64,000 bases of DNA from Epinephelus fuscoguttatus (taxonomy: Eukaryota; Chordata; Actinopteri; Perciformes; Serranidae), in the NCBI RefSeq assembly GCF_011397635.1, contig NC_064752.1:3541501-3605500 (forward strand), read 5' to 3'. The position numbers and the translations under genes were made by a program. The notes beneath the pieces were generated by a model. It ran no database searches and was not told the origin of the DNA. It saw nothing but the letters and a program-made list of their open reading frames with translations. Shown piece after piece: positions 2,650 through 58,700 of this stretch; position 1 is the stretch's first letter, and each line of letters begins with the position of its first letter.

Positions 2650-16625
<13,976 letters not shown>

Positions 16626-21374: not shown

Positions 21375-23943
21375 TGCTCAACACTGAACACAACACCGAA
21401 CACCGAACACAACACTGAACACAACACTGAACACAACACTGAACACAACACCGAACACCGAACACAACACTGAACACAACACTGAACACAACACCGAACA
21501 CAACACTGAACACAACACCGAACACAACACTGAACACAACACTGAACACAACACTGAACACTGAACACAACACTGAACACAACACTGAACACTGAACACA
21601 ACACCGAACACAACACTGAACACAACACTGAACACAACACCGAACACAACACTGAACACAACACTGAACACTGAACACAACACTGAACACAACACTGAAC
21701 ACTGAACACAACACTGAACACCGAACACAACACCGAACACAACACTGAACACTGAACACAACACTGAACACTGAACACAACACTGAACACAACACTGAAC
21801 ACTGAACACAACACTGAACACAACACTGAACACCGAACACAACACTGAACACAACACTGAACACTGAACACAACACTGAACACCGAACACAACACTGAAC
21901 ACAACACTGAACACTGAACACAACACCAAACACAACACTGAACACAACACTGAACACAACACCGAACACAACACTGAACACAACACTGAATACTGAACAC
22001 AACACCAAACACAACACTGAACACAACACCGAACACAACACTGAACACTGGACACAACACCAAACACAACACTGAACACAACACTGAACACTGAACACAA
22101 CACCGAACACAACACTGAACACTGAACACAACACCGAACACAACACTGAACACTGAACACAACACTGAACACAACACAACACTGAACACTGAACACAACA
22201 CTGAACACAACACTGAACACTGAACACAACACTGAACACAACACTGAACACTGAACACAACACCGAACACAACACTGAACACTGAACACAACACCGAACA
22301 CAACACAACACTGAACACTGAACACAACACTGAACACAACACTGAACACTGAACACAACACTGAACACAACACTGAACACAACACCGAACACAACACTGA
22401 ACACTGAACACAACACCGAACACAACACTGAACACAACACTGAACACTGAACACAACACTCAACACAACACCGAACACAACACTGAACACAACACCGAAC
22501 ACAACACTGAACACAACACTGAACACAACACCGAACACAACACTGAACACACAACACCGAACACAACACTGAACACAACACTGAACACAACACCGAACAC
22601 AACACTGAACACAACACTGAACACCGAACACAACACCGAACACAACACTGAACACAACACTGAACACTGAACACAACACCGAACACAACACTGAACACAA
22701 CACTGAACACTGGACACAACACCAAACACAACACTGAACACAACACTGAACACTGAACACAACACTGAACACAACACTGAACACTGAACACAACACCGAA
22801 CACAACACTGAACACAACACTGAACACAACACTGAACACTGAACACAACACCGAACACAACACTGAACACTGGACACAACACCAAACACAACACTGAACA
22901 CAACACTGAACACTGAACACAACACCGAACACAACACTGAACACAACACTGAACACTGAACACAACACCGAACACAACACAACACTGAACACAACACCGA
23001 ACACAACACTGAACACAACACTGAACACAACACTGAACACTGAACACAACACCGAACACTGAACACAACACCGAACACAACACTGAACACTGAACACAAC
23101 ACCGAACACAACACTGAACACAACACTGAACACAACACCGAACACAACACTGAACACAACACTGAACACTGAACACAACACTCAACACAACACCGAACAC
23201 AACACTGAACACAACACCGAACACAACACTGAACACAACACTGAATACAACACCGAACACAACACTGAACACACAACACCGAACACAACACCGAACACAA
23301 CACTGAACACAACACTGAACACAACACCGAACACAACACTGAACACAACACTGAACACAACACTGAACACCGAACACAACACTGAACACAACACTGAACA
23401 CTGAACACAACACTGAACACAACACCGAACACAACACTGAACACAACACTGAACACAACACTCAACACAACACCGAACACAACACTGAACACAACACCGA
23501 ACACAACACCGAACACAACACTGAACACAACACTGAACACTGAACACAACACCGAACACAACACCGAACACAACACTGAACACAACACTGAACACTGAAC
23601 ACTGAACACAACACTGAACACAACACCGAACGCAACACTGAACACAACACTGAACACTGAACACAACACTGAACACAACACCGAACACAACACTGAACAC
23701 TGAACACAACACTGAACACAACACCGAACACAACACTGAACACTGAACACAACACCGAACACAACACTGAACACAACATTGAACACTGAACACTGAACAC
23801 AACATTGAACACAACACCGAACGCAACACTGAACACAACACTGAACACAACACTGAACACAACACCGAACACAACACTGAACACGACGCCAAACACAACA
23901 ACGAACATAACACCGAACACTGAACACAACGCCGAACACGACA
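21375..23943. repeat. 2.6 kb minisatellite of 12-bp and 7-bp modules
   Basis: Made of GAACACAACACT (12 bp), GAACACT (7 bp) and occasional 17-bp versions, differing by whole ACAAC steps. The junction is either ACTGAAC or ACCGAAC. Because no module has a stop codon on the minus strand, all three minus frames stay open, up to 853 codons of Val/Phe/Ser/Cys/Gln; this is not a protein. Confidence 0.97.
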
Positions 23944-23949
23944 CCAGGA

Positions 23950-29104: not shown

Positions 29105-30130
29105 GAGCGAGTCTCAGAGTCATCATACTCAGAGTCATCATCCTCAGCAGTCATCATCCTCAGCAGTCATCATCCTCAGCAGTCATCAGCCTCAGAGTCA
29201 TCATCCTCAGCAGTCATCATCCTCAGAGTCATCAGCCTCAGCAGTCATCATCCTCAGCAGTCATCATCCTCAGAGTCATCAGCCTCAGCAGTCATCATCC
29301 TCAGAGTCATCAGCCTCAGCAGTCATCAGCCTCAGAGTCATCATCCTCAGCAGTCATCATCCTCAGAGTCATCATCCTCAGCAGTCATCATCCTCAGCAG
29401 TCATCATCCTCAGCAGTCATCATACTCAGAGTCATCATACTCAGAGTCATCATCCTCAGCAGTCATCATCCTCAGCAGTCATCATCCTCAGCAGTCATCA
29501 TCCTCAGCAGTCATCAGCCTCAGAGTCATCAGCCTCAGCAGTCATCAGCCTCAGAGTCATCATCCTCAGCAAGTCATCATCCTCAGAGTCATCAGCCTCA
29601 GCAGTCATCAGCCTCAGAGTCATCATCCTCAGCAAGTCATCATCCTCAGAGTCATCAGCCTCAGCAGTCATCAGCCTCAGCAGTCATCAGCCTCAGAGTC
29701 ATCATACTCAGAGTCATCATACTCAGAGTCATCATCCTCAGCAGTCATCATCCTCAGCAGTCATCATCCTCAGCAGTCATCAGCCTCAGAGTCATCATAC
29801 TCAGAGTCATCATCCTCAGCAGTCATCATCCTCAGCAGTCATCATCCTCAGAGTCATCATCCTCAGCAGTCATCATCCTCAGCAGTCATCATCCTCAGAG
29901 TCATCATACTCAGAGTCATCATCCTCAGCAGTCATCATCCTCAGCAGTCATCATCCTCAGCAGTCATCAGCCTCAGAGTCATCAGCCTCAGCAGTCATCA
30001 GCCTCAGAGTCATCATCCTCAGCAAGTCATCATCCTCAGAGTCATCAGCCTCAGCAGTCATCAGCCTCAGAGTCATCATCGTCAGCAGTCATCATCCTCA
30101 GCAGTCATCAGCCTCAGCAGTCATCAGCCA
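29105..30130. repeat. 1.0 kb minisatellite of 15-17 bp units
   Basis: Units CCTCAGCAGTCATCAT (16), CCTCAGAGTCATCAT (15) and a 17-bp form with CAGCAAGTCATC, in irregular order, with CAT/CAG/TAC variants. Open frames of 431 and 352 codons (Ser/His/Gln/Ile) are artefacts of stop-free units. Confidence 0.96.
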
Positions 30131-32250: not shown

Positions 32251-33075
32251 GACCAGGAATTTATACTTCCGCGTTGAATCGACACCGTAGCTACGCCGTA
32301 GGCTCCACGTCAACGGAGAGCTTACCCTGCAACCTACGCTGTAGCCTGACGTGCACCTCCTCAGAGATGTAACTCCACGTCACAGTGACGCAGACCTCCT
32401 GTCTGTCTCTGTGAGCTGAAACCATTTCCCTCAGTGGAAACAAAGCTTTGATTTACTTTAATTTTACAGATAAGAAACAATAAATTGTGAAGACAATAAA
32501 GCCTCCACACACTGTGTGTGATTTACCCTGGCTGAAATATGAGCAGAGCAAATCTCTGCTAGCTGCTAGGCTAATTTATACAATGTAAAATGCAATAGGC
32601 TTGTACTAATAACGTTAGCATGTTGTATTTGTTTGGAAAACGTGTTTAGTATAAGACAGTCGTTTTGTCAGTGAACCCTGTGAGCTGTAATGGAGCTGAA
32701 TTTGTAACGTTACCTGTCTTACATGTTGATGACCGTCTCGCTTTGCTGCGTGAAAAAAACCTGCTCAGTGCTGTCTCATAAGAATGCTTGGAGGCTCCGC
32801 ATCCACCGTGCTGACACGAGAATGTATGACAGGGAGCGTTTGAAAACTGGTGATAAACAGCTGACGTTTGAACATCATAGTCATGATGTTAAACGCAACC
32901 TAGCGCATGTTTAATGAAATGTAAATTCTTATTTCAATGTAAATTCGATAGTGCATATTTGACCATTTCTTCTATGAAATTTTTGGGGACGTTCAGCCTC
33001 CCTTGTTGTCTCAGAGCAATCGCCCCAGGCACCACAGTGTAGGCTCTGCTGCACAACTATAAATCCTGCTTGAGC
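32251..33075 (+). mobile_element. MITE family M1, most complete copy
   Basis: The left end CAGGAATTTATACTTCCG and the right end (reverse complement GCAGGATTTATAGTTGTG) are inverted. Flanks CTCAGCCT and CTGAGCCT could be an 8-bp target duplication (7 of 8), as for hAT. The interior matches the copies at 3055, 6975, 14231 and 33240. About 820 bp, no transposase. Confidence 0.8.
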
Positions 33076-33239
33076 CTGAGCCTGATGGTGTGGGTTTGTG
33101 TTCAGATGAAAATGTCCTCCGTCGTCAGAAAAACAGTTTAGTAACTAGGGCCGTAGTCTCCTGGTCAACTAGTTGATTATTTGGTCGCTAAGGTTAAGTT
33201 ACCTGTGAAAATGCTGTTGTTTTTGTCAGAAAGTTGGAC

Positions 33240-33668
33240 TCACCCACCCTCACGCTCAGTGTTGTGGTGACGCAGACCTCCTGTCTGTCTCTGTGAGCTG
33301 AAACCATTTCCCTCAGTGGAAACAAAGCTTGTATTTACTGTATTTCACAGATAAGCAACAATAAATTGTGAAGACAGTAAAGCCTCCGCTAAAATAGCAT
33401 TTTAAGTCTTGTTTGTGATTTATCCTGGCTGAAATATGAGCAGAGAAAATCTCCGCTCGTTGCTAGGCTAATGTATACAATGTAAAATGCCATAGGCTGA
33501 CGTTTTGAATTACTTTGTGTACGAATTGTGCTCTACAAATAAACTTGCCTTGCCTTGCCTAATAATGTTAGCATGTTGTATTGGTGGGGGAAATGTGTCT
33601 GTAATGCTGCGAGTTATAGTGAAGCTGATTTGTGTACTTATGTTTGAAATTGTCTCTATTAAGCCATG
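33240..33668 (+). mobile_element. MITE family M1 copy leading into the giant array, with a nested retroposon tail
   Basis: GACGCAGACCTCCTGTCTG, AATATGAGCAGAGAAAATCTC and AATGCCATAGGCT match M1. At 33499-33560 the copy is interrupted by TGTGCTCTACAAATAAAC plus (TTGCC)n, a retroposon 3' tail; M1 resumes with AATAATGTTAGCATGTTG. It ends GTCTCTATTAAGCCATGTTT, where the 11-bp array begins. Confidence 0.8.
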
Positions 33669-36600
33669 TTTAATGTGTGTTTAATGTGTTTAATGCGTGT
33701 TTAATGTGTGTTCAATGTGTTTAATGCGTGTTTGTGTGTTTAATGTGTTTAATGCATGTTTAATGTGTGTTTAATGTGTTTTTAATGTGTGTTTAATGTG
33801 TTTTTAATATGTGTTTAATGTGAGTTTCATGCGTATTTAATGTGTGTTCAATGTGAGTTTAATACATGTTTAATGTGTGTTTAATGTGTTTAATGTGTGC
33901 TTTATGTCAGATTAATGTGTTTAATGTGTGTTTACTGTGAGTTTGTGTGTTTAATGTGTTTAATGTGCGTTTACTGTGTGTTAATGTGTGTTTACTGTGT
34001 GTTTAATGTGTTTAATGTGTGTTTAATGTGTGTTTACTGTGTTTAATGTGTGTTTAATGTGTTTAATGATAGTTTAATGTGTTTTTAATGTGTGTTTAAT
34101 GTGTTAAATGCGTATTTAATGTGTGTTTAATGTGGTTAATGTGTTTAATGAGAGTTTAATGTGTGTTTAATGTGTGTTTAATGTGAGTTTCATGCGTATT
34201 TAATGCGTATTCAATGTGAGTTTGATGCTTGTTTAATGTGTGTTTAATGTGTTTAATGTGTGTTTAATGTGTGTTTAATGTGTTTACTGTGTTTAATGTG
34301 TTTAATGAGAGTTTAATGTGTTTTTAATGTGTGTTTAATGTGTGTTTAATGTGTTTAATGAGAATTTAATGTGTTTTTAATGTGTGTTTAATGTGAGTTT
34401 CATGCGTATTTAATGTGTGTTCAATGTGAGTTTGATGCATGTTTAATGTGTTTATTGTGTTTAATGTGTGTTTAATGTGTCTAATGTGTGTTTACTGTGA
34501 GTTTAATGTGTGTTTAATGTGAGTTTCATGCGTATTTAATGTGTGTTCAATGTGAGTTTAATGCATGTTTAATGTGTGTTTAATGTGTTTAATGTGTGTT
34601 TAATGTGAGATTAATGTGTTTAATGTGTGTTTACTGTGTCTAATGTGTGTTTACTGTGAGTTTAATGTGTGTTTAATCTGTGTTTAATCTGTGTTTACTG
34701 TGTTTACTGTGTTAATGTGTGTTTACTGTGTGTTTAATGTGTTTAATGTGTGTTTAAAGTGTTTAATGTGAGTTTAATGCGCGTTTAATGTGTGTTTAAT
34801 GTGTTTAATGTGTGTTTAATGTGTGTTTACTGTGTTTAATGTGTGTTTAATGTGTTTAATGTGTGTTTACTGTGTGTTTAATGTGTTTAATGTGACTTTA
34901 ATGTGTTTAATGTGTGTAATGTGTTTTTAATGTGAGTTTCATGCGTATTTAATGTGTGTTCAATGTGAGTTTAATATATGTTTAATGTGTGTTTAATGTG
35001 TTTAATGTGTGCTTAATGTGTTTTTAATGTGTTTAATGTGTGTTTACTGTGAGTTTAATGTGTGTTTAATGTGTTTAATGTGTGTTTAATGTGTTTAATG
35101 TGAGTTTAATGCGCGTTTAATGTGTGTTTAATGTGTTTAATGTGTGTTTAATGTGTGTTTACTGTGTTTAATGTGTGTTTAATGTGTTTAATGTGTGTTT
35201 ACTGTGTGTTTAATGTGTTTAATGTGACTTTAATGTGTTTAATGTGTTTTTAATGAGTTTCATGCGTATTTAATGTGTGTTCAATGTGAGTTTAATATAT
35301 GTTTAATGTGTGTTTAATGTGTTTAATGTGTGCTTAATGTGTTTTTAATGTGTTTAATGTGTGTTTACTGTGAGTTTAATGTGTGTTTAATGTGTTTAAT
35401 GTGCGTTTACTGTGTGTTAATGTGTGTTTACTGTGTGTTTAATGTGTGTTTACTGTGTTTAATATGTGCTTAATGTGTTTTTAATGTGTTTAATGTGTGT
35501 TTCCTGTGTTTAATGTGTGTTTACTGTGAGTTTAATGTGTGTTTAATGTGTTTAATGTGCGTTTACTGTGTGTTTAATGTGTGTTTAATGTGTTTAATGT
35601 GTTTAATGAGAGTTTAATGTGTTTTTAATGTGTGTTTACTGTGTGTTTAATGTGTTTAATGCGTGTTTAATGTGTGTTTGTTTAATGTGTTTAATGAGAG
35701 TTTAATGTGTTTTTAATGTGTTTAATGTGTGTTTAATGTGAGTTTGATGCATGTTTAATGTGTTTAATGTGTTTACTGTGTCTAATGTGTGTTTACTGTG
35801 AGTTTAATGTGTGTTGAATGTGTTTACTGTGTTAATGTGTGTTTAATGTGAGTTTCATGCGTATTTAATGTGTGTTCAATGTGAGTTTAATGCATGTTTA
35901 ATGTGTGTTTAATGTGTTTAATGTGTGCTTAATGTGAGATTAATGTGTTTAATGTGTGTTTATTGTGTTTAATGTGTTTACTGTGAGTTTAATGTGTGTT
36001 TAATGTGTTTAATGTGCGTTTACTGTGTGTTAATGTGTGTTTAATGTGTTTGTGTGTTGTTTAATGTCTTTAATGAGAGTTTAATGTGTTTTTAATGTGT
36101 GTTTAGTGTTTAATGTGAGTTTCATGCGTATTAATGTGTGTTCAATGTGAGTTTAATGCATGTGTAATGTGTGTTTAATGTGTGTTTACTGTGTGTTTAA
36201 TGTGAGTTTAATGTGTGTTTAATGTTTGTTTAATGTGCGTTTCATGTGAGTTTAATGTGTGTTTAATGTGTGTTGTTTAATGTGCGTTTAATGTGAGTTT
36301 AATGTGTTTAATGTGCGTTTAATGTGAGTTTAATGTGTTTAATGTGCATTTAATGTGAGTTTATTGTGTGTTTAATGTGTTTGATGTGTGTTTAATGTGA
36401 TTAATGTGCTTTTAATGTGTTTATTGTGTGTTTAATGTGAGATTAATGTGTGTTTAATGTATGTTTAATGTGTTTAATGTGTGTGTAATGTGACTTTAAT
36501 GTGTGTTTAATGTGTGTTTAATGTGTTTAATGTGTGTTAATGTCAGTTTAATGTGTGTTTAATGTGAGTTTAATGCGTGTTTAATGTGTGTTAATGTCAG

Positions 36601-39600
36601 TTTAATGCGTGTTTGTGTGTTTAATGTGCGTTTAATGTGTGTTTAATGTGTGTTGTTTAATGTGCGTTTAATGTGAGTTTAATGTGTGTTTACTGTGTGT
36701 TTAATGTGTGTTTAATGCATGTTTAATGTGTGTTTACTGTGTGTTTAATGTGTGTTTAATGTGTTTAATGTGTGCTTAATGTGAGATTAATGTGTTTAAT
36801 GTGTGTTTATTGTGTTTAATGTGTTTACTGTGAGTTTAATGTGTGTTTAATGTGTTTAATGTGCGTTTACTGTGTGTTAATGTGTGTTTAATGTGTTTAA
36901 TGTGTGTTGTTTAATGTCTTTAATGAGAGTTGAATGTGTTTTTAATGTGTGTTTAGTGTTTAATGTGAGTTTCATGCGTATTAATGTGTGTTCAATGTGA
37001 GTTTAATGCATGTGTAATGTGTGTTTAATGTGTGTTTACTGTGTGTTTAATGTGAGTTTAATGTGTGTTTAAAGTTTGTTTAATGTGCGTTTCATGTGAG
37101 TTTAATGTGTGTTTAATGTGTGTTGTTTAATGTGCGTTTAATGTGAGTTTAATGTGTTTAATGTGCGTTTAATGTGAGTTTAATGTGTTTAATGTGCATT
37201 TAATGTGAGTTTATTGTGTGTTTAATGTGTTTGATGTGTGTTTAATGTGATTAATGTGCTTTTAATGTGTTTATTGTGTGTTTAATGTGAGATTAATGTG
37301 TGTTTAATGTATGTTTAATGTGTTTAATGTGTGTGTAATGTGACTTTAATGTGTGTTTAATGTGTGTTTAATGTGTTTAATGTGTGTTAATGTCAGTTTA
37401 ATGTGTGTTTAATGTGAGTTTAATGCGTGTTTAATGTGTGTTAATGTCAGTTTAATGCGTGTTTGTGTGTTTAATGTGCGTTTAATGTGTGTTTAATGTG
37501 TGTTGTTTAATGTGCGTTTAATGTGAGTTTAATGTGTGTTTACTGTGTGTTTAATGTGTGTTTAATGCATGTTTAATGTGTGTTTACTGTGTGTTTAATG
37601 TGTGTTTAATGTGTTTAATGCATGTTTACTGTGTGTTTAATGTGTGTTTAATGTGTGTTTAATGTGTTTAATGCGTGTTTAATGTGTGTTCAATGTGTTT
37701 AATGCGTTTGTGTGTTTAATGTATTTAATGCATGTTTAATGTGTCATTAATGTGTTTTTAATGTGTGTTTAATGTGTTCAATGTGAGTTTAATGCAGGTT
37801 TAATGTGTGTTTACTGTGTGTTTAATGTGTGTAATGTGTGTTTAATGTGTTTATTGTGTGTTTAATGTGAGATTAATGTGTGTTTAATGTGAGTTTAATG
37901 TGTGTTAATGTCAGTTTAATGCGTGTTTAATATGTGCTTAATGTGTGTTTAATGTGCGTTTAATGTGTGTTTAATGTGCGTTGTTTAATGTGCGTTTAAT
38001 GTGAGTTTAATGTGTGTTTACTGTGTGTTTAATGTGTTTAATGTGAGTTTAATGTGTGTTTTGCTGTGTGTTTAATGTGTTTAATGTGAGTTTAATGTGT
38101 TTAATGTGTGTTTAATGTGAGTTTAATGTGTTTAATGTGAGTTTAATGTGTGTTTACTGTGTGTTTAATGTGTTTAATGTGAGTTTAATGTGTTTAATGT
38201 GAGTTTAATGTGTGTTTACTGTGTGTTTAATGTGTTTAATGTGAGTTTAATGTGTTTAATGTGAGTTTAATGTGTGTTTACTTTGTGTTTAATGTGTTTA
38301 ATGTGAGTTTAATGTGTTTAATGTGTGTTTAATGTGAGTTTAATGCGTGTTTAATGTGTTTAATGTGTTTAATGTGTGTTTAATGTGTTACTGTGAGTTT
38401 AATGTGTGTTTAATGTGTTTAATGTGTGTTTTTAATGTGCTTTTAATGTGAGTTTAATGCGTGTTTAATGTGTGTTTAATGTGAGTTTAATGTGCGTTTA
38501 ATGTGAGTTTAATGTGTTTAATGTGAGTTTAATGTGTTTAATGTAAGTTTAATGTGTGTTTAATGTGTTTAATGTGAGTTTAATGCGTGTTTAATGTGTG
38601 TTGTTTAATGTGCGTTTAATGTGAGTTTAATGTGTGTTTACTTTGTGTTTAATGTGTTTAATGTGAGTTTAATGTGTTTAATGTGTGTTTAATGTGAGTT
38701 TAATGCGTGTTTAATGTGTGTTTAATGTGTGTTGTTTAATGTGCGTTTAATGTGAGTTTAATGTGTGTTTACTTTGTGTTTAATGTGTTTAATGTGGGTT
38801 TAATGTGTGTTTACTGTGTGTTTAATGTGCTTTTAATGTGAGTTTAATGTGAGTTTAATGCGTGTTTAATGTGTGTTTAATGTGTTTAATGTGCGTTTAA
38901 TGTGTTTAATGTAAGTTTAATGTGTGTTTAATGTGTTTAATGTGCGTTTAATGTGTTTAATGTGAGTTTAATGTGTGTTTACTGTGTGTTTAATGTGTTT
39001 AATGTGAGTTTAATGTGTGTTTACTGTGTGTTTAATGTGTTTAATGTGTGTTTAATGTGTTTAATGTGAGTTTAATGTGTTTAATGTGTGTTTAATGTGA
39101 GTTTAATGCGTGTTTAATGTGTGTTTAATGTGTGTTGTTTAATGTGCGTTTAATGTGAGTTTAATGTGTGTTTAATGTGTTTAATGTGTGTTTAATGTGT
39201 TACTGTGAGTTTAATGTGTGTTTAATGTGTTTAATGTGTGTTTTTAATGTGCTTTTAATGTGAGTTTAATGTGAGTTTAATGTGTGTTTACTGTGTGTTT
39301 AATGTGCTTTTAATGTGAGTTTAATGTGAGTTTAATGCGTGTTTAATGTGTGTTTAATGTGAGTTTAATGTGCGTTTAATGTGAGTTTAATGTGTTTAAT
39401 GTGAGTTTAATGTGTTTAATGTAAGTTTAATGTGTGTTTAATGTGTTTAATGTGAGTTTAATGCGTGTTTAATGTGTGTTTAATGTGTGTTGTTTAATGT
39501 GCGTTTAATGTGAGTTTAATGTGTGTTTACTTTGTGTTTAATGTGTTTAATGTGAGTTTAATGTGTTTAATGTGTGTTTAATGTGAGTTTAATGCGTGTT

Positions 39601-40205
39601 TAATGTGTGTTTAATGTGTGTTGTTTAATGTGCGTTTAATGTGAGTTTAATGTGTGTTTACTTTGTGTTTAATGTGTTTAATGTGGGTTTAATGTGTGTT
39701 TACTGTGTGTTTAATGTGCTTTTAATGTGAGTTTAATGTGAGTTTAATGCGTGTTTAATGTGTGTTTAATGTGTTTAATGTGCGTTTAATGTGTTTAATG
39801 TGTGTTTACTGTGTGTTTAATGTGCTTTTAATGTGAGTTTAATGTGTGTTTAATGTGTTTAATGTGCGTTTAATGTGTTTAATGTGAGTTTAATGTGAGT
39901 TTAATGTGTTTAATGTGTATGAATGTGTTCACTGTGAGTTTAATGTGTGTTTAATGTGCTTAATGTGAGTTTAATGCGTGTTTAAAGTGTGCTTAACGTG
40001 TGTTTAATGTGTTTAATGTGTGTTTAATGTGCGTTAAATGTGTTTAATGTGTGTTTAATGTGTTTAACGTGTGTTTAATGTGTGTTTAATGTGTTTAATG
40101 TGAGTTTAATGTGTTTTTAATGTGTGTAATGTGTGTTTAATGTGTGTTTAATGTGCGTTTATTGTGTGTTTAATGTGAGTTTAATGTGTGTTTAATGTGT
40201 GTTTA
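33665..40205. repeat. 6.5 kb megasatellite of an 11-bp unit (TGTGTTTAATG-like)
   Basis: Roughly 600 units of TTTAATGTGTG (11 bp) and TTTAATG-GTG shorter forms, with GAG, GCG, CAT and ACTG variants. Larger tandem duplications are visible. A ~850-bp block repeats (TTCATGCGTATTAATGTG at 36121 and 36971; TGTCAGTTTAATG at 36541 and 37391). A ~880-890-bp block repeats (ATGTAAGTTTAATG at 38541 and 39419). A 332-bp block repeats (GCGCGTTTAATG at 34779 and 35111). Stops in all frames; not coding. Confidence 0.97.
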
Positions 40206-41019
40206 CCGCAAAATCAATGTTTCCGTTTTTTTCTCAAAGTCTATGTGGCGGCCATTTTGGACTTCAAAATGGCGACCTGTTCCTAGTTGGATGAGACATG
40301 ATACATCTGATTGGTTCTGAGTTTAGGAGTTAATTTGTAAATTTTTGCGAGGAAACAAACAGAAACATTTCCAAAACAATAAAAACAGTTTGTTGTTTCA
40401 GGTAAATAATTGCTGTATCTTTTGTTATTGTTTCTCTTATTACCACGCTGGAAAACTAGCTACGTAGCATTAGCAGTTAGCTTTAGAATGTCAGCACCTG
40501 GTTGACATACTGAGCAGATGTTAAACACAATAAGTGATGTAGACAGACAGCGTCATGATTTCATCCTATCAGATAACTGTGTAAAATGTCAGCATATGAA
40601 TTCTTGAGTTACAGACAAAAAGATGTTTTATGAGGTTACAGTAACCTTTGACCTTTGACCACCAAATTCAATTCCTTCATATCAAAGTGCTTGTTCTTAG
40701 TTCATGTGAATCATCTGAATAACTAAAAAGGAAGTTTAGTCATTGACAGTAAAAACCTGCTGAACTGAACCTGACATTTAAAAAAGGTGTTTTGAACATT
40801 CGCTACGTTTAAAAAAAAACAAAATGGCCGTCACAGAGAGTTTAAAAAAATAGAAACATTAGTTTTAATATTCCTCGTTTTCTAACGATTTAAAAATGTT
40901 TAATTTGTTAACTCCCCGAGAAACTTAAATGAAAATATTCAAAATACATCGGGAACTGTGTCACAGGTTCAAACCCTCTGTGACACGTGTACAAAACATA
41001 AACATAAATAAAACATCAT

Positions 41020-41129: not shown

Positions 41130-41312
41130 AGGTGTGTGTTTACAGGTGTGTGTTGTGTTGACAGGTGTGTGTTGACAGGTGTATGTTGTGTTTACAGGTG
41201 TGTGTTGTGTTGACAGGTGTGTGTTGTGTTTACAGGTGTGTGTTGTGTTGACAGGTGTGTGTTGTGTTTACAGGTGTATGTTGTGTTGACAGGTGTGTGT
41301 TGTGTTGACAAG
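41130..41312. repeat. 19-20 bp minisatellite immediately upstream of ascl5 ATG
   Basis: About nine units of ACAGGTGTGTGTTGTGTTG and a variant with TTTACAGG. The array stops about 5 bp before the first ATG of ascl5. Each unit holds a TTGACAG/GTGTGT word that looks like fused acceptor and donor sites. Confidence 0.95.
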
Positions 41313-41316
41313 TCAC

Positions 41317-41802
41317 ATGATGAGCTCCACCTTCTCTCCATCATCTTACCTGAGCTTCGGCGTGTCTCCCCCTGCTGCTCACCGTGAGGATCGCAGCGTC
41401 TCTCAGCGCTCTCTGTCGGGCCCCGTCCCCTTCCTCCTCTACTCGTCTGGAATGGACCCTCTGAGGGGCCCCGGGCTCCTGCCCTACCTGGCCCCCTTCC
41501 ACCACCATGGACACTTCAGCGTCTACGAGTGTCCCTTTGAGCCGGCGTTCATCCAGAAGCGTAACGAGCGGGAGCGTCAGAGGGTGAGGTGCGTGAACCA
41601 GGGTTACGCCAAACTGAGGGACCACCTGCCGGGTCAGAGCGCCGACAAGCGCCTCAGCAAGGTGGAGACGCTCAGAGCCGCCATCAGGTACATCAAATAC
41701 CTGCAGGGCCTGGTGGAGCTGGAGGAGGGCGGAGCCAACACCTCGCCTCCTAGACGGGACTGTGGAGGAGAATCTGACGGAGAACTGAGAACACTGAACT
41801 GA
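41317..41802 (+). CDS. ascl5: ascl5, achaete-scute family bHLH transcription factor
   Basis: Single-exon CDS of 161 codons. A class II bHLH protein, expected to bind E-boxes (CANNTG) as a heterodimer with E proteins in the nucleus. The bHLH spans residues 79-131: basic region KRNERERQRVRCVN, helix 1 QGYAKLRDHLP, loop GQSADKRLSK, helix 2 VETLRAAIRYIKYLQ. Upstream, VPFLLY and YECPFEPAFIQ are ASCL5 hallmarks (human VPFLLY, EPAFIQKRNERERQR); ASCL4 and ASCL3 lack this combination. Two tandem ATGs (41317, 41320) could start it; the longer open frame lacks an earlier ATG. Convergent with ppp1r15b, its neighbour region in human 1q32 as well. Residue 95 is Gln where family members usually have Glu. 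The 5' leader is a minisatellite. ASCL4 is the main alternative. Confidence 0.9.
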   Translation: MMSSTFSPSSYLSFGVSPPAAHREDRSVSQRSLSGPVPFLLYSSGMDPLRGPGLLPYLAPFHHHGHFSVYECPFEPAFIQKRNERERQRVRCVNQGYAKLRDHLPGQSADKRLSKVETLRAAIRYIKYLQGLVELEEGGANTSPPRRDCGGESDGELRTLN

Positions 41803-47375: not shown

Positions 47376-47660
47376 ACGTCTCAGGCGTCCTGGATGTGGA
47401 GGACAGACGGTCCTCAGGCGTCCTGGACGTCTGGACGTAGAGGACTGACTGTCCTCAGGCGTCCTGGATGTTGAGGACTAACGGTCCTCAGGCGTCCTGG
47501 ACGTAGAGGACTGACTGTCCTCAGGCATCCTGGACGTAGAGGACTGACGGTCCTCAGGCGTCCTGGACGTCTGGACGTAGAGGACTGACGACCCTCAGGC
47601 GTCCTGGACGTCTGGACGTAGAGGACTGACGGTCCTCAGGCGTCCTGGACGTAGAGGAGG
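47376..47660. repeat. 32/42-bp minisatellite overlapping the ppp1r15b stop codon
   Basis: About eight units containing TCCTCAGGCGTCCTGGACGT and AGAGGACTGAC, some with an extra CTGGACGT step. The right-most unit (47630-47655) is coding: on the minus strand it gives CTC TAC GTC CAG GAC GCC TGA, the last residues and stop of ppp1r15b. Confidence 0.95.
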
Positions 47661-47851: not shown

Positions 47852-50800
47852 CTGAAGAAGAAGAGTTGAGGTAGTGAGTTCAGGAAGTCAGGGCGACTCT
47901 TCAGACCTCCTGTATCAGAGTTTCAAACATATTCTGTGAATAAAGATGTACGACATGCTAAACTAAGCCCCGCCCACTCCATGTTTGCAGTCACCTGCAG
48001 AAAGCTGTGTAACAGGTAAAAATATGTATCTATATGAACTCACGGGTAAGATCAATGTCCACGCCGGCAGGCAGCAGGTGACAACATGAATGTGTGCAGT
48101 ATGTGTGTAATATTGTGACTGTTCCTTTTATTTTGACACAAGTGGAACCTTTGACTCTTTAAAAAGGGGTGTGATGTCATGATTGACAGCTGTGTGAGCC
48201 AATCAGTGTGCTCTTATCTATGGTGCTGCTTGTGATTGGTCAGACGGGTGTATGGATGGAAACTCGACACCAGCACAGTTCACTACGGCGCAGACTCTGA
48301 CTCCGAATGACGTCACCAGCTTGAGGTGGCGGCGGCAGTATTTGAGATATTTTGGCTTCAGTTTTGGATCAAAGTGGAGACACGTGGTCATCTTCACAGA
48401 GTCTGTGGTTCACACACTTTGAGAACAAATGTTGACAGAGCATAAAGTAAAAAGCCCTGTTTATTCAAATCACATGTAGAGCAGAGCAGTGACGTCTGAC
48501 TGATCAATAAGTCTGATTTTAGTCATCAGTAGTTAACCTGTACCAGATGCTGTAGTTCTGCTGTGAGCCACAGGGGGCGTCTGTCTCTTCATCGCCATCA
48601 TCAGTTTGATTTTTACTTTAAATCTGAATTAACAGTTTCAATTGGTTCAGTTTGATCAGGACAATTAACTTTTTCAACCCTGCAGCTCATTAAGGCTGCT
48701 GCAAAGTAACTAAGTACATTTACTCAACTACTGAACTCAAGACACTTGAGATACTTGTACTTGAGTATTTTTATTTTCTGTAACTTTATCCTTGTACACG
48801 ACATGTAACTGTAGGAATGAAGTCTTCTGTTTTTATTAAGTCACATGTTCATGTCAAACACTGCTCTAACTTTATTCTCTTCACAAATAAACCTGTCTCA
48901 TATCTCACAACTTTTTACTACAGCACATTTATTTCAGATTATTAATACAAATCTAATCAATCACAAAGGATAATGTTATTATTATCAGCAGGATATACAG
49001 TCACTAAGCACCGATATAGTACAGATATCTGTACTGTATCTGCTTCTCTACTGTACTTGTATGTGTACAGTATCAGTATCTGTACCTGTATCTGTACAGT
49101 ACCTGTATCTGCATAGTACCTGTACCTGTATCTGTACAGTACCTGTATCTGTACAGTACCTGTATCTGCATCTGTACAGTATCTGCATCTGTACAGTACC
49201 TGCATCTGTACAGTACCTGTATCTGTACAGTACCTGTATCTGTATAGTACCTGTACCTGTACAGTACCTGTATCTGCATCTGTACAGTACCTGTATCTGC
49301 ATCTGTACAGTACCTGTACCTGTATCTGTACAGTACCTGTATCTGTATAGTACCTGTACCTGTATCTGTACAGTACCTGTATCTGCATCTGTACAGTACC
49401 TGTATCTGCATCTGTACAGTACCTGTATCTGTATAGTACCTGTACCTGTATCTGTACAGTACCTGTACCTGTATCAGTACAGTACCTGCATCTGTACAGT
49501 ACCTGTATCTGTATAGTACCTGTATCTGTATCTGCATCTGTACAGTACCTGTATCTGTATAGTACCTGTATCTGTACAGTACCTGTATCTGTATAGTACC
49601 TGCATCTGTACAGTACCTGTATCTGTATAGTACCTGCATCTGTACAGTACCTGCATCTGTACAGTACCTGTATCTGTATAGTACCTGTATCTGTATCTGC
49701 ATCTGTACAGTACCTGTATCTGTATAGTACCTGTATCTGTATCTGCATCTGTACAGTACCTGTATCTGCATCTGCATCTGTACAGTACCTGTATCTGTAC
49801 AGTACCTGTACCTGTATCTGTACCTATACACTACCTGTACCTGTACAGTACCTGTATCTGTACAGTACCTGTACCTGCATCTGTACAGTACCTGTACCTG
49901 TATCTGTACACTACCTGTACCTGTACAGTACCTGTACCTGTACCTGCATCTGTACAGTACCTGTATCTGTACAGTACCTGTATCTGTATAGTACCTGTAC
50001 CTGTACAGTACCTGTATCTGCATCTGTACAGTACCTGTATCTGCATCTGTACAGTACCTGTACCTGTATCTGTACAGTACCTGTATCTGTATAGTACCTG
50101 TACCTGTATCTGTACAGTACCTGTATCTGCATCTGTACAGTACCTGTATCTGCATCTGTACAGTACCTGTATCTGTATAGTACCTGTACCTGTATCTGTA
50201 CAGTACCTGTACCTGTATCAGTACAGTACCTGCATCTGTACAGTACCTGTATCTGTATAGTACCTGTATCTGTATCTGCATCTGTACAGTACCTGTATCT
50301 GTATAGTACCTGTATCTGTACAGTACCTGTATCTGTATAGTACCTGCATCTGTACAGTACCTGTATCTGTATAGTACCTGCATCTGTACAGTACCTGCAT
50401 CTGTACAGTACCTGTATCTGTATAGTACCTGTATCTGTATCTGCATCTGTACAGTACCTGTATCTGTATAGTACCTGTATCTGTATCTGCATCTGTACAG
50501 TACCTGTATCTGCATCTGCATCTGTACAGTACCTGTATCTGTACAGTACCTGTACCTGTATCTGTACCTATACACTACCTGTACCTGTACAGTACCTGTA
50601 TCTGTACAGTACCTGTACCTGCATCTGTACAGTACCTGTACCTGTATCTGTACACTACCTGTACCTGTACAGTACCTGTACCTGTATCTGCATCTGTACA
50701 GTACCTGTATCTGCATCTGTACAGTACCTGTACCTGCATCTGTACAGTACCTGTACCTGCATCTGTACAGTACCTGTACCTGCATCTGTACAGTACCTGT

Positions 50801-53800
50801 ACCTGTATCTGTACCTATACACTACCTGTACCTGTACCTGCATCTGTACAGTACCTGTACCTGCATCTGTACAGTACCTGTATCTGCATCTGTACAGTAC
50901 CTGTACCTGTATCTGTACCTATACACTACCTGTGCCTGTACAGTACCTGTATCTGCATCTGTACAGTATCTGCATCTGTACAGTACCTGTATCTGCATCT
51001 GTACAGTACCTGTATCTGCATCTGTACAGTACCTGTATCTGTACCTATACACTACCTGTGCCTGTACAGTACCTGTATCTGCATCTGTACAGTATCTGCA
51101 TCTGTACAGTACCTGTATCTGCATCTGTACAGTACCTGTATCTGTATCTGTACAGTACCTGTACAGGGTGGTGTCAGTACATTTACTGCAGTACAGGATC
51201 TGAGTACCTGTTCCACCACTGCTGTAACCTGACACCACAGTACGCTCTGCAGGAACAGGTGTGGCGTAGGGCTCAGCTCTGAAACACACGTGTGTTATGT
51301 ATGAACTGTTGACCTGCTCTGATGCTTTATCACATTTATTCTGTTGGACTTGAGTTTTAATAAAAACACATTGAATCAAACATCCTGATCAGATGATCAA
51401 TAACAGGGTGTCAGCAGGTACCACACACTTCTTCTAATTGATTTATGGGACAGATTTTCGGACACATCCTCACTGTTTAATGAAAGCACTGCAGGTGAAA
51501 ACAACATAGAGGTCAGTATGTGCACACGGTGCTGCACAGAGGGAGGGTCTGTATGAATATGGCTCATCTACATTTTACCAGCCTGTATGTGCAGAAGTAA
51601 AACACAGAGCAGGTTTAAAGAGACGTTGACACAGAAGAGCTCAACAACAAATTAAATAAGACAAAATGTGTGTGGCAGATAAGACCTCACACATCCTAAT
51701 TCAATGACTTTAAAGGCCTTATATTTATAACACTGAATTTAACACACTTTCAGACTTGTTATGGACCCACAGACGACCTGAGGGACCAACACTGACATTG
51801 AAGGGACACTGACGGGACTCTGAAGGGACACGGTCCCGAGTCCTGATAACAAATTGGTCGGTGAGTTTCAGTTTGAGTCAGCCTGCGTCATCAGATGAAA
51901 CGCAGCAGTAAAATGTGACGCTGCAGCAAGGAAGCAGTTTGTGTTTCAGTTTCAGGATGACTGACCGTCATATTTACAAGAAAAGACGTGAAGACGAGCT
52001 GCAGAGACAGAAAACTCTCACTGTTCACATTTAAAATGTCCCAAACTGTCCTCTCAGCCTGAAATATGTCAACGTCTGTGCTGCTTAGAAAGTTGGAGTA
52101 AGCACTCTAAAATAATACCATGACTTCTGATCATTATTATTATGATTATTATCATCAGTGTGTTCAGTCTGGAGAAAGTCTTTACGATCTGTCGTGTTTT
52201 GTTTGAACCAAAACAAACAATATTTTCCTTTACATTTTATCTCTGAATATTTGACATCTGGCACTAACAGAAAATTATTTTGCACCGATTCTGATAATAA
52301 ATCAATAATTTAAAATCATGTATTCTCTCTGGTGTCCCTGTCTTTGTCCTTTAGGACTGAAACTCTTGTTTTGGACTGTTGGTCCAACAGAGGACAGAAC
52401 GGACGTGTCTCTGGTTGGTTGATTTGACGGAGGTTTACAGGCCTGAGGAAACCATCAGATTCTGGATTTTACTCTAAATTAATATTGTGACTGAATGGTC
52501 ACTGAGGGAGGGGACAACTCTCTGAATGACATAAGAAAACAAACGCACCTTTTTGGTGGTGCTGCAGCTCTGGGTGGAGGAGGTGGAGGGTTCAGAGAAG
52601 CCGCTGTCCAGCCTCTCCTCAGCCTCCTCCTTCCTGTACTCGGGTGGAAATGCTGGGTTATGGCGGGGCGAGCGAGGGAGGGTTTGGGAGCCCTTCTTAG
52701 CCCTGGTCCTGGCCCTGGGCCCTGCCTCGGCGGGCCCTTGAGTCCTGAGTGGGGCCTGGAAGTTAAAGGGGCTGTAGGGGTCCGGGGAGCAGCTGAAGGA
52801 GCTCCACAGGCGGAGGCTTTCTGCTTCGTCCACCTCGCTGGCCGAGGTGGAGTCGTCCCAGACGTCTTGGCCGGATGGAGGGGAGGAGGAGGTGAGGAGA
52901 GGGGAGGCTCCGAGGGTGGAGGGAGGGTCAGGAGAGGAGGCGGGGGTGGACTGGGTGGACGAAGGAGGCGTGGGGGTGGGGATGGTCCTGGGCGGGGTGC
53001 TGGCGGTGCGCAGCCGGGCAGTGAAGTTTCGGGGGTTGTACGGGTCCACCGTTTGGCACAGTGAGTTCCACAGGCGCTCCGCCTCAGAGTCTGCCTCGCT
53101 GTCAGAGGCTTCATCATCGTCTTCATCATCTTCATCAGTTGAATCGGACAGATCAGACGAGCCCTCGCTGTCAAAGCCATCATCATCATCATCATCTTCG
53201 TCATCACTGGACTCCTCGTCTGATTGGCTGCTGTCGTCGTCATCATCATCACTGCAGGGGCAGCCCATGATGAAGGCTATGGCTTTATTCTGGCACTGAG
53301 GGGTGGTGAGGGCTGTGGCCTGATCCTCCTGAGGGGCCGCGACCTGCTCTTCCTCCTCTTCCTGCATCCTCTCTTCCTTGTCCACCTGTCCTGATGCAGA
53401 CGCTCCCTCCTCTGAAGTCTCCTCCTCCATTTCCGTCTCGATGGTGACAGCAGCAGTGGCGGCGGTGGCGGCAGTACTTTCTGTTGACTCGGCCTCCTGC
53501 TCTTCACTCAGGGCCTTCACCATGTTCAGGTGGCACACCTGGAAGTGTTCCTCCTCCAGACTGGAGTAACCATTGTCCTGATCAGGGGTCAGCAGTGCCA
53601 CCTCACTGCAGGCGGCGGCAGCTCCTGACCTGCTCAGGTGGGTACTGATGCTGAGCCGGCGCTCCGTCGTGGAGCCCTCTGTGTTCTGGACTGTTTGAAG
53701 GCCTCCATTGTTCGCCGGCTCCTCTTTGTGGTCAGTCGGTCCAGTGTTTTCTCCCAGCGTCCACCCTCCACCGCCACTCTGGACAAACACATCGGTTGTT

Positions 53801-54507
53801 TCGGGAGCTTTTGTTTCAGTCACCGGTTGTTGAGGACAAAGCCTTCCTGTGCCGGTCCCGTCCTCAGCCCAGGACAGGTCTGACATCAGCCCTCTGTGTG
53901 AGCTCTCCTCGCCCCCCCACAAGCTGCCCCACCACGTCCTGCTCTTCATCGAGCGCCCCAGCGGCTCCCAGTCCTTCCCTCCTGTCGGTTTAATTTCCTG
54001 AGATGACACCGAGCTCAACAGAACATGACTGAAAAAAGTCCTGACAGAAGACAGGTATCCGATCTGAGTTTGCTGGCACAGATTTAAATCCATTTCTTCT
54101 GCGCTCTGGATCCCCATCTCCCGCAGAGAGTCAGCGCTGAGCCACGGTAAAGTGCTGCCGCCGCTCGGCTCCAGCAGGCCGGCGGCTCCGTCGTGCTGAC
54201 ACCGCAGGACGGTCAGGTGGGGAGCCGCGTGCTGCAGCGGCATCATGCCGTCCAGCTGTCTCAAAAACTCACTCTCCTCATCAACGAAGCTGGTTTTAAC
54301 CCAGCCGGCTCCCGTATCAGCCCGGGCCGGGGCTCGGGGCCGCCCCGGGAGATATCTCTGCAGAAATGACAGCGCGGGCCTGGAGAGCAGGCCGATCCAC
54401 GAGCTTTCCTGGCTGTCAAGCCCAGGAGAGGCGAGTCCCCGCCCGGCCGGAGAGGACGAGCTCTGCCCGCCGGATAAATGTCCCTCCCCGCTCATACTGG
54501 TGAACAT
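47636..54507 (-). CDS. ppp1r15b: ppp1r15b (CReP), PP1 targeting subunit for eIF2alpha dephosphorylation
   Basis: Joined exons 54507-52549 and 47851-47636 give 724 residues (human protein about 713). The product brings protein phosphatase 1 to phosphorylated eIF2alpha at the ER and restores translation. Visible family features: TPDQDNGYSSLEEEHF (307-322), NKAIAFIMGCP followed by a long Asp/Glu/Ser-rich tract (about 415-475), and two repeats ending in LWNSLCQTVDPYNPRNF (479-495) and RLWSSFSCSPDPYSPFNF (566-583). The PP1-docking KVRF (653-656) is created exactly at the splice junction, then RGPWEELARDRCRF (675-688). The upstream in-frame TTG is not used: the first ATG is 54507, with a second at 54495. 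The C-terminus departs from the family, ending in minisatellite-encoded LYVQDA. Several upstream ORFs precede it. Confidence 0.96.
48694..51221 (+). mobile_element. MITE family M2 in ppp1r15b intron, carrying a minisatellite
   Basis: The left end GCTGCAAAGTAACTAAGTAC then ATTTACTCAACTACTGAACT, and the right end GGATCTGAGTACCTGTTCCACCACTG (reverse complement CAGTGGTGGAACAGGTACTC), are the two termini of a very common teleost MITE with CAGTGGTGGAAAGTAAC ends. Interior TTATTAATACAAATCTAATC (48939-48958) also fits the family. The stretch between 49070 and 51170 is tandem repeat. Confidence 0.75.
49070..51172. repeat. 2.1 kb minisatellite of CTGTAC/CTGTATCTG modules
   Basis: Built from 6-bp steps (CTGTAC, CTGTAT, CTGCAT) joined as ACAGTACCTGTATCTG-like units. 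A 744-bp block is duplicated: TACCTATACACTACCTG occurs at 49821 and 50565. Both strands are open for long distances (570 codons on minus, Tyr/Arg/Gln/Thr-rich); no protein is implied. Confidence 0.96.
51225..52470. other. ppp1r15b intron, distal part, no feature
   Basis: AT-rich intron sequence between the M2 element and the exon 1 donor. No exon or repeat recognised. Confidence 0.5.
52549..54507 (-). CDS. ppp1r15b: ppp1r15b coding exon 1
   Basis: 653 codons, ending STTKK at donor AAG/GTGCGT in phase 0. Reading on into the intron gives 24 spurious codons (VRLFSYV...). The intron's GTGCGT imitates the Val-Arg that exon 2 really supplies. Contains the acidic low-complexity tract encoded by GAT/GAC/GAA runs at about 53100-53260. 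Confidence 0.96.
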
Positions 54508-54873
54508 TTCCGAAAACTCCAAAGTGCAAAATGTGAAATTTGTGACATTACCTGAGCAGCAGGTGAGACACGTGACAGCTGTCAGACTGTGGGAGGCAGC
54601 GGCGACTCAACACGAGCTCTCATTAATATCCATCAATACTCACAAACACACACAAGTGATTAATTAGTCAAACATGGTCTTTTACACCGACTGGCTCTCA
54701 CAGCCGCCAGCGCAGACACAGGGAACCCGGGGGAGACTGTCCGTGACACCGTTAGCGCTCCTCTGAGAGTGGTGGTTGGACTTCTTTCTGGTGGAGAACT
54801 TTGTGACGACGGTAAACACGGTGGAATCCCGGTGTGAAGATGAATCCCGGTGTGACGACGACAGAAGAGCCAT
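54492..54873 (-). promoter_or_regulatory. upstream ORF cluster in the ppp1r15b leader
   Basis: Minus-strand ATGs upstream of the main start: uORF1 54873-54682 (63 codons, context AAAATGG); uORF2 54633-54607 (8 codons); uORF3 54623-54582 (13 codons); uORF4 54548-54492 (18 codons). uORF4 overlaps the first main ATG out of frame and ends TGA inside ATGA at the second main ATG (54495). Mammalian PPP1R15 mRNAs are known to be controlled by uORFs. An acceptor-like CTGCTGCTCAG at 54550-54560 means part could be spliced out. Confidence 0.5.
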
Positions 54874-55770: not shown

Positions 55771-55774
55771 CAAA

Positions 55775-58700
55775 CTGAACTTTATTTATATAGTGTAGAC
55801 GACACCTTATTTATATAGTGTAGAACTAAACTTTATTTATATAGTGTAGACTAAACTTTATTTATATAGTGTAGACTTAACCTTATTTATATAGTGTAGA
55901 CTAAACCTTATTTATATAGTGTAGACTAAACCTTATTTATATAGTGTAGACTTAACCTTATTTATATAGTGTAGACTTAACTTTATTTATATAGTGTAGA
56001 CTTAACTTTATTTATATAGTGTAGACTACACCTTATTTATATAGTGTAGACTAAACCTTATTTATATAGTGTAGACTAAACCTTATTTATATAGTGTAGA
56101 CTTAACCTTATTTATATAGTGTAGACTAAACCTTATTTATATAGTGTAGACTTAACTTTATTTATATAGTGTAGACTACACCTTATTTATATAGTGTAGA
56201 CTAAACCTTATTTATATAGTGTAGACTAAACCTTATTTATATAGTGTAGACTTAACTTTATTTATATAGTGTAGACTTAACTTTATTTATATAGTGTAGA
56301 CTAAACTTTATTTATATAGTGTAAACTACACCTTATTTATATAGTGTAGACTAAACCTTATTTATATAGTGTAGACTAAACCTTATTTATATAGTGTAGA
56401 CTAAACCTTATTTATATAGTGTAGACTTAACTTTATTTATATAGTGTAGACTACACCTTATTTATATAGTGTAGACTAAACCTTATTTATATAGTGTAGA
56501 CTAAACCTTATTTATATAGTGTAGACTTAACTTTATTTATATAGTGTAGACTTAACTTTATTTATATAGTGTAGACTAAACTTTATTTATATAGTGTAAA
56601 CTACACCTTATTTATATAGTGTAGACTAAACCTTATTTATATAGTGTAGACTAAACCTTATTTATATAGTGTAGACTAAACCTTATTTATATAGTGTAGA
56701 CTAAACCTTATTTATATAGTGTAGACTTAACTTTATTTATATAGTGTAGACTACACCTTATTTATATAGTGTAGACTAAACCTTATTTATATAGTGTAGA
56801 CTAAACCTTATTTATATAGTGTAGACTTAACTTTATTTATATAGTGTAGACTTAACTTTATTTATATAGTGTAGACTAAACTTTATTTATATAGTGTAAA
56901 CTACACCTTATTTATATAGTGTAGACTAAACCTTATTTATATAGTGTAGACTTAACTTTATTTATATAGTGTAGACTACACCTTATTTATATAGTGTAGA
57001 CTAAACCTTATTTATATAGTGTAGACTTAACTTTATTTATATAGTGTAGACTACACCTTATTTATATAGTGTAGACTAAACTTTATTTATATAGTGTAAA
57101 CTACACCTTATTTATATAGTGTAGACTAAACTTTATTTATATAGTGTAGACTAAACTTTATTTATATAGTGTAAACTACACCTTATTTATATAGTGTAGA
57201 CTAAACTTTATTTATATAGTGTAAACTACACCTTATTTATATAGTGTAGACTAAACTTTATTTATATAGTGTAGACTACACCTTATTTATATAGTGTAGA
57301 CTAAACTTTATTTATATAGTGTAGACTAAACTTTATATAGTGTAGACTAAACCTTATTTATATAGTGTAGAACTAAACTTTATTTATATAGTGTAGACTA
57401 AACCTTATTTATATAGTGTAGAACTAAACCTTATTTATATAGTGTAGACTAAACCTTATTTATGTAGTGTAGAACTAAACTTTATTTATATAGTGTAGAC
57501 TAAACTTTATTTATATAGTGTAGACTAAACCTTATTTATATAGTGTAGAACTAAACTTTATTTATATAGTGTAGACTAAACCTTATTTATATAGTGTAGA
57601 CTTAACTTTATTTATATAGTGTAGACTAAACTTTATTTATCTAGTGTAGACTACACCTTATTTATATAGTGTAGACTAAACCTTATTTATATAGTGTAGA
57701 CTAAACCTTATTTATATAGTGTAGACTTAACTTTATTTATATAGTGTAGACTAAACTTTATTTATATAGTGTAAACTACACCTTATTTATATAGTGTAGA
57801 CTTAACTTTATTTATATAGTGTAGACTACACCTTATTTATATAGTGTAGACTAAACCTTATTTATATAGTGTAGACTTAACTTTATTTATATAGTGTAGA
57901 CTACACCTTATTTATATAGTGTAGACTAAACTTTATTTATATAGTGTAAACTACACCTTATTTATATAGTGTAGACTAAACTTTATTTATATAGTGTAGA
58001 CTAAACTTTATTTATATAGTGTAAACTACACCTTATTTATATAGTGTAGACTAAACTTTATTTATATAGTGTAAACTACACCTTATTTATATAGTGTAGA
58101 CTAAACTTTATTTATATAGTGTAGACTACACCTTATTTATATAGTGTAGACTAAACTTTATTTATATAGTGTAGACTAAACTTTATATAGTGTAGACTAA
58201 ACCTTATTTATATAGTGTAGAACTAAACTTTATTTATATAGTGTAGACTAAACCTTATTTATATAGTGTAGAACTAAACCTTATTTATATAGTGTAGACT
58301 AAACCTTATTTATGTAGTGTAGAACTAAACTTTATTTATATAGTGTAGACTAAACTTTATTTATATAGTGTAGACTAAACCTTATTTATATAGTGTAGAA
58401 CTAAACCTTATTTATATAGTGTAGACTAAACCTTATTTATGTAGTGTAGAACTAAACCTCATTTATATAGTGTAGAACTAAACTTTATTTATATAGTGTA
58501 GACTAAACTTTATTTATATAGTGTAGACTAAACCTTATTTATATAGTGTAGAACTAAACTTTATTTATATAATGTAGACTAAACCTTATTTATATAGTGT
58601 AGACTTAAATTTATTTACATAGTGTAGACTAAACTTTATTTATCTAGTGTAGACTAAACCTTATTTATATAGTGTAGACTTAACTTTATTTATATAGTGT

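Follow-up and report, generated by a model that had tools for sequence, protein, structure and literature searches.

The 6.5-kb array of short tandem units in the window (the whole stretch of 64,000 nucleotides analysed here, C1:3541501-3605500) is a minisatellite attached to a dispersed transposon, and we consider it very probable that such arrays grow from the transposon's own sequence. We suggest that a single unit inside a hAT-like element served as the seed, that this seed was duplicated in place and grew by slippage and unequal exchange, and that this happened repeatedly, with larger arrays towards one end of each chromosome. The repeat is found at the same insertion point over a whole series of sizes, an intact copy with its target duplication holds an array of intermediate size, the arrays are specific to their loci, and unit number is graded along the chromosomes.

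The array and the element that carries it

TRF describes the array with period 11, 620.5 copies, 77% matches and 10% indels, and gives the consensus TGTTTAATGTG. A simple segmentation yields 535 anchors, mostly at intervals of 11 bp (326) or 9 bp (117), and the units are 11-mers, TTTAATGTGTG and its variants, mixed with 9-mers, TTTAATGTG. With these two counts the about 600 units of the initial annotation are a fair estimate. Its term megasatellite has to be given up: megasatellites have units of roughly 100 bp or more, and minisatellites or VNTRs have units of about 10-60 bp in arrays of hundreds of base pairs to kilobases. With units of 11/9 bp the window array, like the array copies elsewhere, is of minisatellite size both in unit and in array length. 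Block duplications are present within the array, the closest long pair being listed in Table 1. We claim no function for the array, which is most likely neutral baggage.

All genome-wide searches were made in the assembly of 1.047 Gb and 26 contigs, the long contigs of which we take to be chromosomes. The pattern of three exact units in a row is found 135 times and its reversed form, used as control, 0 times, so that chance is excluded. Immediately before the window array lies the flank GTCTCTATTAAGCCATGTTT (33652-33671). As initially annotated, this flank is common to three copies of the element then called M1, and in the copies at 7 kb and 14 kb it is followed by 2.5 and 3.5 units, respectively.

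Elsewhere the flank copies are held by an element of about 0.8-1.2 kb that has terminal inverted repeats and the ends TAGGGCTGTAGTC...GACTACAGCCCTA. An exact target duplication of 8 bp is present in 7 of the 15 copies with both ends, and at least 7 of the 8 positions agree in 11/15; the remaining copies have 6 of 8 (L020, L035, L040) or 4 of 8 (L007). One copy (L009) was excluded from this count in advance, as its end pair looked spurious. When the flanks were re-paired as a control, 1000 shuffles produced 0 exact duplications. We take ends of the TAGGGCTGTAGTC...GACTACAGCCCTA type to be hAT-like, and because of these ends together with the 8-bp target duplications the element, as judged from its sequence, fits a hAT-like non-autonomous transposon. 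Tc1/mariner elements duplicate TA on insertion; membership in this family, to which miDNA4 belongs, was rejected for an element with 8-bp duplications and TAGGGC ends. In the viral contigs, scanned with the M1 core pattern, 0 matches were found.

The window copy of the element begins at 33146, after TTAGTAAC, and not at 33240 as first annotated; the transposon is larger than M1 as first described. The insert in its left arm is absent from the other copies in the window (Table 1). There is no right partner of TTAGTAAC in the window, and the right element end is missing as well. That the right side of M1 is not found after 40205, as noted initially, was borne out by a BLAST search of the window with the right half of the copy on C8 described below, which returned the 7-kb and 14-kb copies, an 18-bp motif repeated within the 25-bp array (55774-63621) and a few short matches at chance level. 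In the place of the missing half the array adjoins M2, a second dispersed element. Three of the larger left-side matches of M2 (on C22, C10 and C2) begin at query base 16, which corresponds to 40205, and one (C14) at base 1; by this comparison the junction between array and M2 probably lies at or near M2's own terminus.

Table 1. Positions in the window of the array, its element and related copies
Feature	Position	Strand	Basis
Minisatellite array, 11-bp (TTTAATGTGTG-like) and 9-bp (TTTAATGTG) units	33667..40205	+	TRF 620.5 copies, segmentation
Recent internal duplication, 35832-36821 vs 36679-37673	35832..37673	+	97.4% identity over 995-column alignment, lag 847
Left half of candidate 8-bp target duplication, TTAGTAAC	33138..33145	.	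directly before element end; sole exact copy in window
Left arm of putative hAT-like non-autonomous element, terminal TAGGGCCGTAGTC to array	33146..33666	+	homologous to left arms of dispersed copies
Insert of ~60 bp in left arm	33499..33558	+	alignments to 3-, 7-, 14- and 32-kb copies break there
M1 copy, 2.5 units, ordinary right side	7061..7304	+	TRF, BLAST/alignment; flank counterpart starts ~7199
M1 copy, 3.5 units, ordinary right side	14229..14602	-	TRF, BLAST/alignment; flank counterpart starts ~14428
M1-related copy without flank and 11-bp repeat	32334..33080	+	alignment
M1-related copy, truncated before repeat site	3064..3374	+	alignment
M2, second dispersed element, imperfect inverted repeats of ~50 bp (40210-40259 / 40820-40866)	40205..40940, right limit approximate	+	

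Repeat size and its distribution along the chromosomes

Allowing up to 3 mismatches, the flank with the first unit matches 3,448 times in the genome (reversed-pattern control 0). Among these, 935 copies with the standard right flank have one unit, 1,206 have two and 107 have three, again with up to 3 mismatches and with reversed-pattern controls of 0; the remaining 1,200 matches, which differ in unit number, contain 9-mers or have a diverged right flank, are unclassed. Further copies that were examined hold 4-10 units at the insertion point. The tabulation of copy number at this site, which the initial annotation had proposed, thus gives a series from one unit upward, and the internal repeat spans one monomer to arrays at a single site of the element. 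The same annotation had named M1 copies without the repeat as evidence against expansion. Taken literally, the 935 one-unit copies and the 32.3-kb copy are of this kind; we regard them as most likely the unexpanded state or another subfamily, and not as a refutation.

The most complete case is the copy on C8. It consists of the left end, the left flank, 114.5 units (1,245 bp), the right flank and the right end, with GTATTAAC on both sides as a perfect 8-bp target duplication. Because this copy combines both ends and a perfect target duplication with 114.5 units, growth in place is nearly proven, and the initial proposal that the array is an expansion of the transposon's own short repeat stands on the single insertion point, the size series and this intact copy. 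The window copy is without its right half and its right target duplication, so that its own in-place history is suggested by analogy with the C8 copy and others.

The number of units rises towards one end of each chromosome. Measured to the nearest contig end, the median distance is 13.3 Mb for one-unit copies (exact matches, 100 listed of 935, from C1-C12), 7.7 Mb for two-unit copies (exact matches, 100 listed of 1,206, from C1-C11), 3.8 Mb for three-unit copies (98 of 107; 100 listed, two on C16 left out) and 2.0 Mb for run loci, with three exact units in succession (69 of the 70 grouped loci, one on C16 left out; the matches listed reach C18). For the 17 run loci with two or more such runs it is 0.93 Mb. 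One-unit positions do not differ from a uniform distribution (KS p 0.32), and Mann-Whitney tests give p values of 8.7e-5 for one versus two units, 8.1e-5 for two versus three and 2.5e-21 for one unit versus runs. Within 5 Mb of an end lie 59/69 run loci and 15 of the 100 one-unit copies listed. On each of 16 chromosomes (C1-C18 without C5 and C16) the run loci are all at the same end, C2 having one locus only. If the ends are set from the runs, the near half contains 88/96 two-unit and 48/87 one-unit copies. The gradient is also present in a sample chosen by similarity of the left arm and not by units: in 31 copies unit number and distance are correlated with a Spearman coefficient of -0.55 (p 0.0015), after 8 places without a scorable repeat and the window copy had been dropped from 40; with the window copy rho is -0.50 (p 0.004). 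The window array is the longest seen, yet it sits 3.6 Mb from the end, and array length therefore does not strictly follow distance.

It is conceivable, if somewhat doubtful, that this gradient reflects subfamily history, in that a one-unit subfamily spread evenly, whereas those of two or more units preferred one end for insertion or survived better there. The flank matches listed irrespective of units are themselves end-biased: on C1-C3 the first tenth of the chromosome contains 46 of the 86 places (C4, with 14 listed places, was excluded because the matches listed stop before its array-bearing end). Such a list would not arise if copies had inserted uniformly and then grown. Copies with two or more units must also have been favoured there in insertion or survival, and part of the positional pattern is left unexplained by growth in place. 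In addition, on a tree of 72 flank sequences, made by a quick method and weak with stars on 4 of its 69 inner branches, one-unit copies are the sole class that is clustered (5 changes against a shuffled mean of 7.8, 1/500 shuffles as low), and three one-unit copies far from the ends form a clade. Against a purely historical gradient, the trend persists among two-, three- and many-unit copies and is seen in the left-arm sample, and the same tree shows no clustering of copies with three or more units (21 changes against a mean of 21.9, 198/500 as low), nor of the two-unit copies (24 against 24.4, 270/500). The data do not separate position-driven growth from subfamily history.

Two other repeats of the window served as controls. 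The transposon M2 leans to the opposite end (median 0.78; 35 places, four on C16 and the window having been dropped from 40), so the end bias is not common to all dispersed repeats. A two-unit stretch of a 25-bp array matches 155 times genome-wide and the 100 among the matches listed are all at the window locus; being confined to one locus in the matches listed, this control minisatellite is uninformative on the end bias of other arrays. The telomere pattern gave two overlapping matches, both on C21: there is a TTAGGG run on the side with the arrays, 85 kb short of the contig end.

With confidence that is nearly even we suggest that one seed present in thousands of copies reads out local tandem-repeat growth, with mostly one unit in chromosome interiors and arrays near one, presumably the distal telomeric, chromosome end, such that minisatellite birth would be controlled by position and not by sequence. 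The origin of minisatellites is usually studied with unrelated sequences at different places, whereas here the same seed is found at thousands of places. Unit number is the read-out, the one-unit state is the control and intermediate sizes are present, which makes the element a natural experiment on where arrays grow. A position-driven gradient would allow growth to be regressed directly on recombination rate, and a gradient due to subfamily history would still show transposons loading one chromosome end with repeat seeds.

Recurrent growth at different loci

Long arrays are found elsewhere at C2:50.72M (132 copies), C3:430k (68.5), C3:446k (63.2), C4:46.4M (49.5), C6:46.33M (142.5), C6:46.50M (91.6) and C12:42.9M (135.2). 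We compared 11 array sequences, the C12 entry being the whole 1.9-kb stretch and some others being cut at the end of the examined stretch. The longest exact segment common to arrays of different loci is 25-52 bp, as compared to exact repeats of 66-547 bp within an array. The exception is the pair C3:446k and C3:447k, a segmental duplicate with 555 bp in common. As the arrays of different loci share so little, growth must have been recurrent. It is thus very improbable that the array expanded once in a master element and was spread by transposition, each long array being a transposed copy. Such a history could account for the arrays at C3:446k, C6:46.33M, C6:46.50M and C12, which group with one two-unit copy on the flank tree (SH-aLRT 89), but apart from the segmental duplicate no more than 52 bp are shared exactly between loci, the unit variants differ, and the tree, weak as it is, shows the copies of three or more units scattered.

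Element sequence lies beside the run in 19/19 inspected loci with a run of three or more units. These are 17 distinct loci among L072-L101 together with C12 and C8, that is 18 of 70 hand-grouped loci if C3:446k and C3:447k are counted as one, the grouping being based on 100 of the 135 places. The element is on both sides in 10 of them, including the arrays on C2 (132 copies) and at C3:430k (68.5), on the left only in 8 (C1:727k, the window, C3:446k, C3:447k, C3:718k, C6:46.33M, C6:46.50M and C12) and on the right only in one (C3:924k). A missing right half is common among long arrays; at C6:46.33M and C12 the sequence beyond the array comprises only 28 and 169 bases, and the right half may lie further off. 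The 9/19 loci with the element on one side, some of whose other sides are barely or not covered, are what one would expect if the transposon had captured, or inserted into, a pre-existing minisatellite. This is very unlikely, however, in view of the single unit at the same internal point in 935 copies and of the array inside both ends of the C8 element with its perfect target duplication. Long near-identical blocks are hard to assemble, but that the long array is an assembly artefact is hardly credible with arrays of the 11-bp unit in element context at several loci and an internal divergence that is graded and not that of perfect copies.

We thus return to growth in place from a seed within the transposon. 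The one-unit sequence CATGTTTAATGTGTGTTTTGAATC contains TGTTT twice with a spacing of 11 bp, so that one event of slippage or microhomology-mediated repair could add one unit; with further units unequal exchange would become possible. According to this model, the hAT-like non-autonomous transposon would have carried the seed CATGTTTAATGTGTGTTTTGAATC as one unit, which after insertion would have been duplicated in place, the TGTTT microhomology being the site of slippage or repair. From two units upward, slippage and unequal exchange would have led to further growth. The window copy would have reached about 600 units with block duplications and have lost its right half by deletion, which would have left the array against M2. 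The same growth would have been repeated at other copies, with array size greater towards one end of each chromosome. This gradient would most simply come from a more recombinogenic array-bearing end. According to the cited reports, terminal chromosome regions recombine more in stickleback (PMC6553505), and male crossovers are biased to the chromosome ends in brook charr (PMC5555479).

Two of the inspected regions have further peculiarities. The arrays at C3:446k and C3:447k (L088, L089) lie in a local segmental duplication, the first being bounded by gene-like sequence on its right. At C1:727k (L072, C1:725864-728894) a second array of 57.5 copies is found about 800 bp beyond the run with the left flank. 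The 120 bp before it, the one side examined, hold no element-like sequence, and the two stretches may have been one array that was separated by an insertion.

Known systems and neighbouring repeats

The birth of satellites inside MITEs has been published for miDNA4, for Xstir in Xenopus and for others, as covered in PMC12628747 and PMC9659126. In these accounts, miDNA4 is a Tc1/mariner MITE of Xenopus tropicalis (Scalvenzi and Pollet 2014), a non-autonomous element whose internal satellite motif is present as one monomer or as an array of variable length, as in our element. Flanking direct repeats of at least 5 bp around the monomer are proposed there as the cause, and the TGTTT pair is a repeat of this type; long arrays of miDNA4 may lose the element ends, likewise here. 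On the other hand, miDNA4 is found in a frog and is said to have captured a pre-existing repeat, whereas the present element has hAT-like ends, an 11-bp unit, 1 to about 600 units and an array size graded along chromosomes. On the sequence features compared, the process is apparently of the same kind in a different family. For the Xstir / Xmix MITE of Xenopus (Hikosaka and Kawahara 2004; PMC12628747, PMC9659126), tandem repeats from internal MITE sequence are similarly described, with MITE, array and composite forms; the mechanism proposed there differs, being stem-loop joining of two neighbouring elements. A minisatellite inside a MITE is likewise reported from Porphyromonas gingivalis, a bacterial case (PMC4596501). 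In Tetris of Drosophila virilis transposon sequence also seeds a satellite, but according to the same two sources the seed, TIR-220, is located in the terminal repeats of a foldback element and not at an 11-bp internal site (PMC12628747, PMC9659126). In the open-access literature searched by topic and by unit and end motifs, we recognised no paper describing the element or a positional gradient of unit number. MITE-born satellites are therefore already known, and the positional gradient is the new part.

Other tandem repeats occur near the array and within the element. The transposon has a second tandem repeat in the left arm of the C8 element (L029, C8:613000-622900), where about 2.5 copies of a 210-bp block follow one another, and another long minisatellite with TCTGTAGCGTCAGCGTGG-like units lies about 1.3 kb from this element (L029, ~3.3-4.85 kb of the reverse strand). 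The window contains at least 7 further minisatellite arrays with different units (1-1135, 15571-16533, 21379-23945, 29113-30126, 47380-47658, 49026-51163 and 55774-63621). The last is the 25-bp array, with 309 copies, the unit of which contains ACTATATAAATAAAGTTT, an 18-bp motif that the C8 copy of the 33-kb element also has in its right half. Three reading frames were noticed in the window: an aldehyde dehydrogenase stretch at 5165-5548 (-), a PP1c-binding region at 52477-54606 (-), and an HLH domain (bHLH), ASCL-like by eye, at 41290-41802 (+), which starts about 1.1 kb to the right of the 6.5-kb array.
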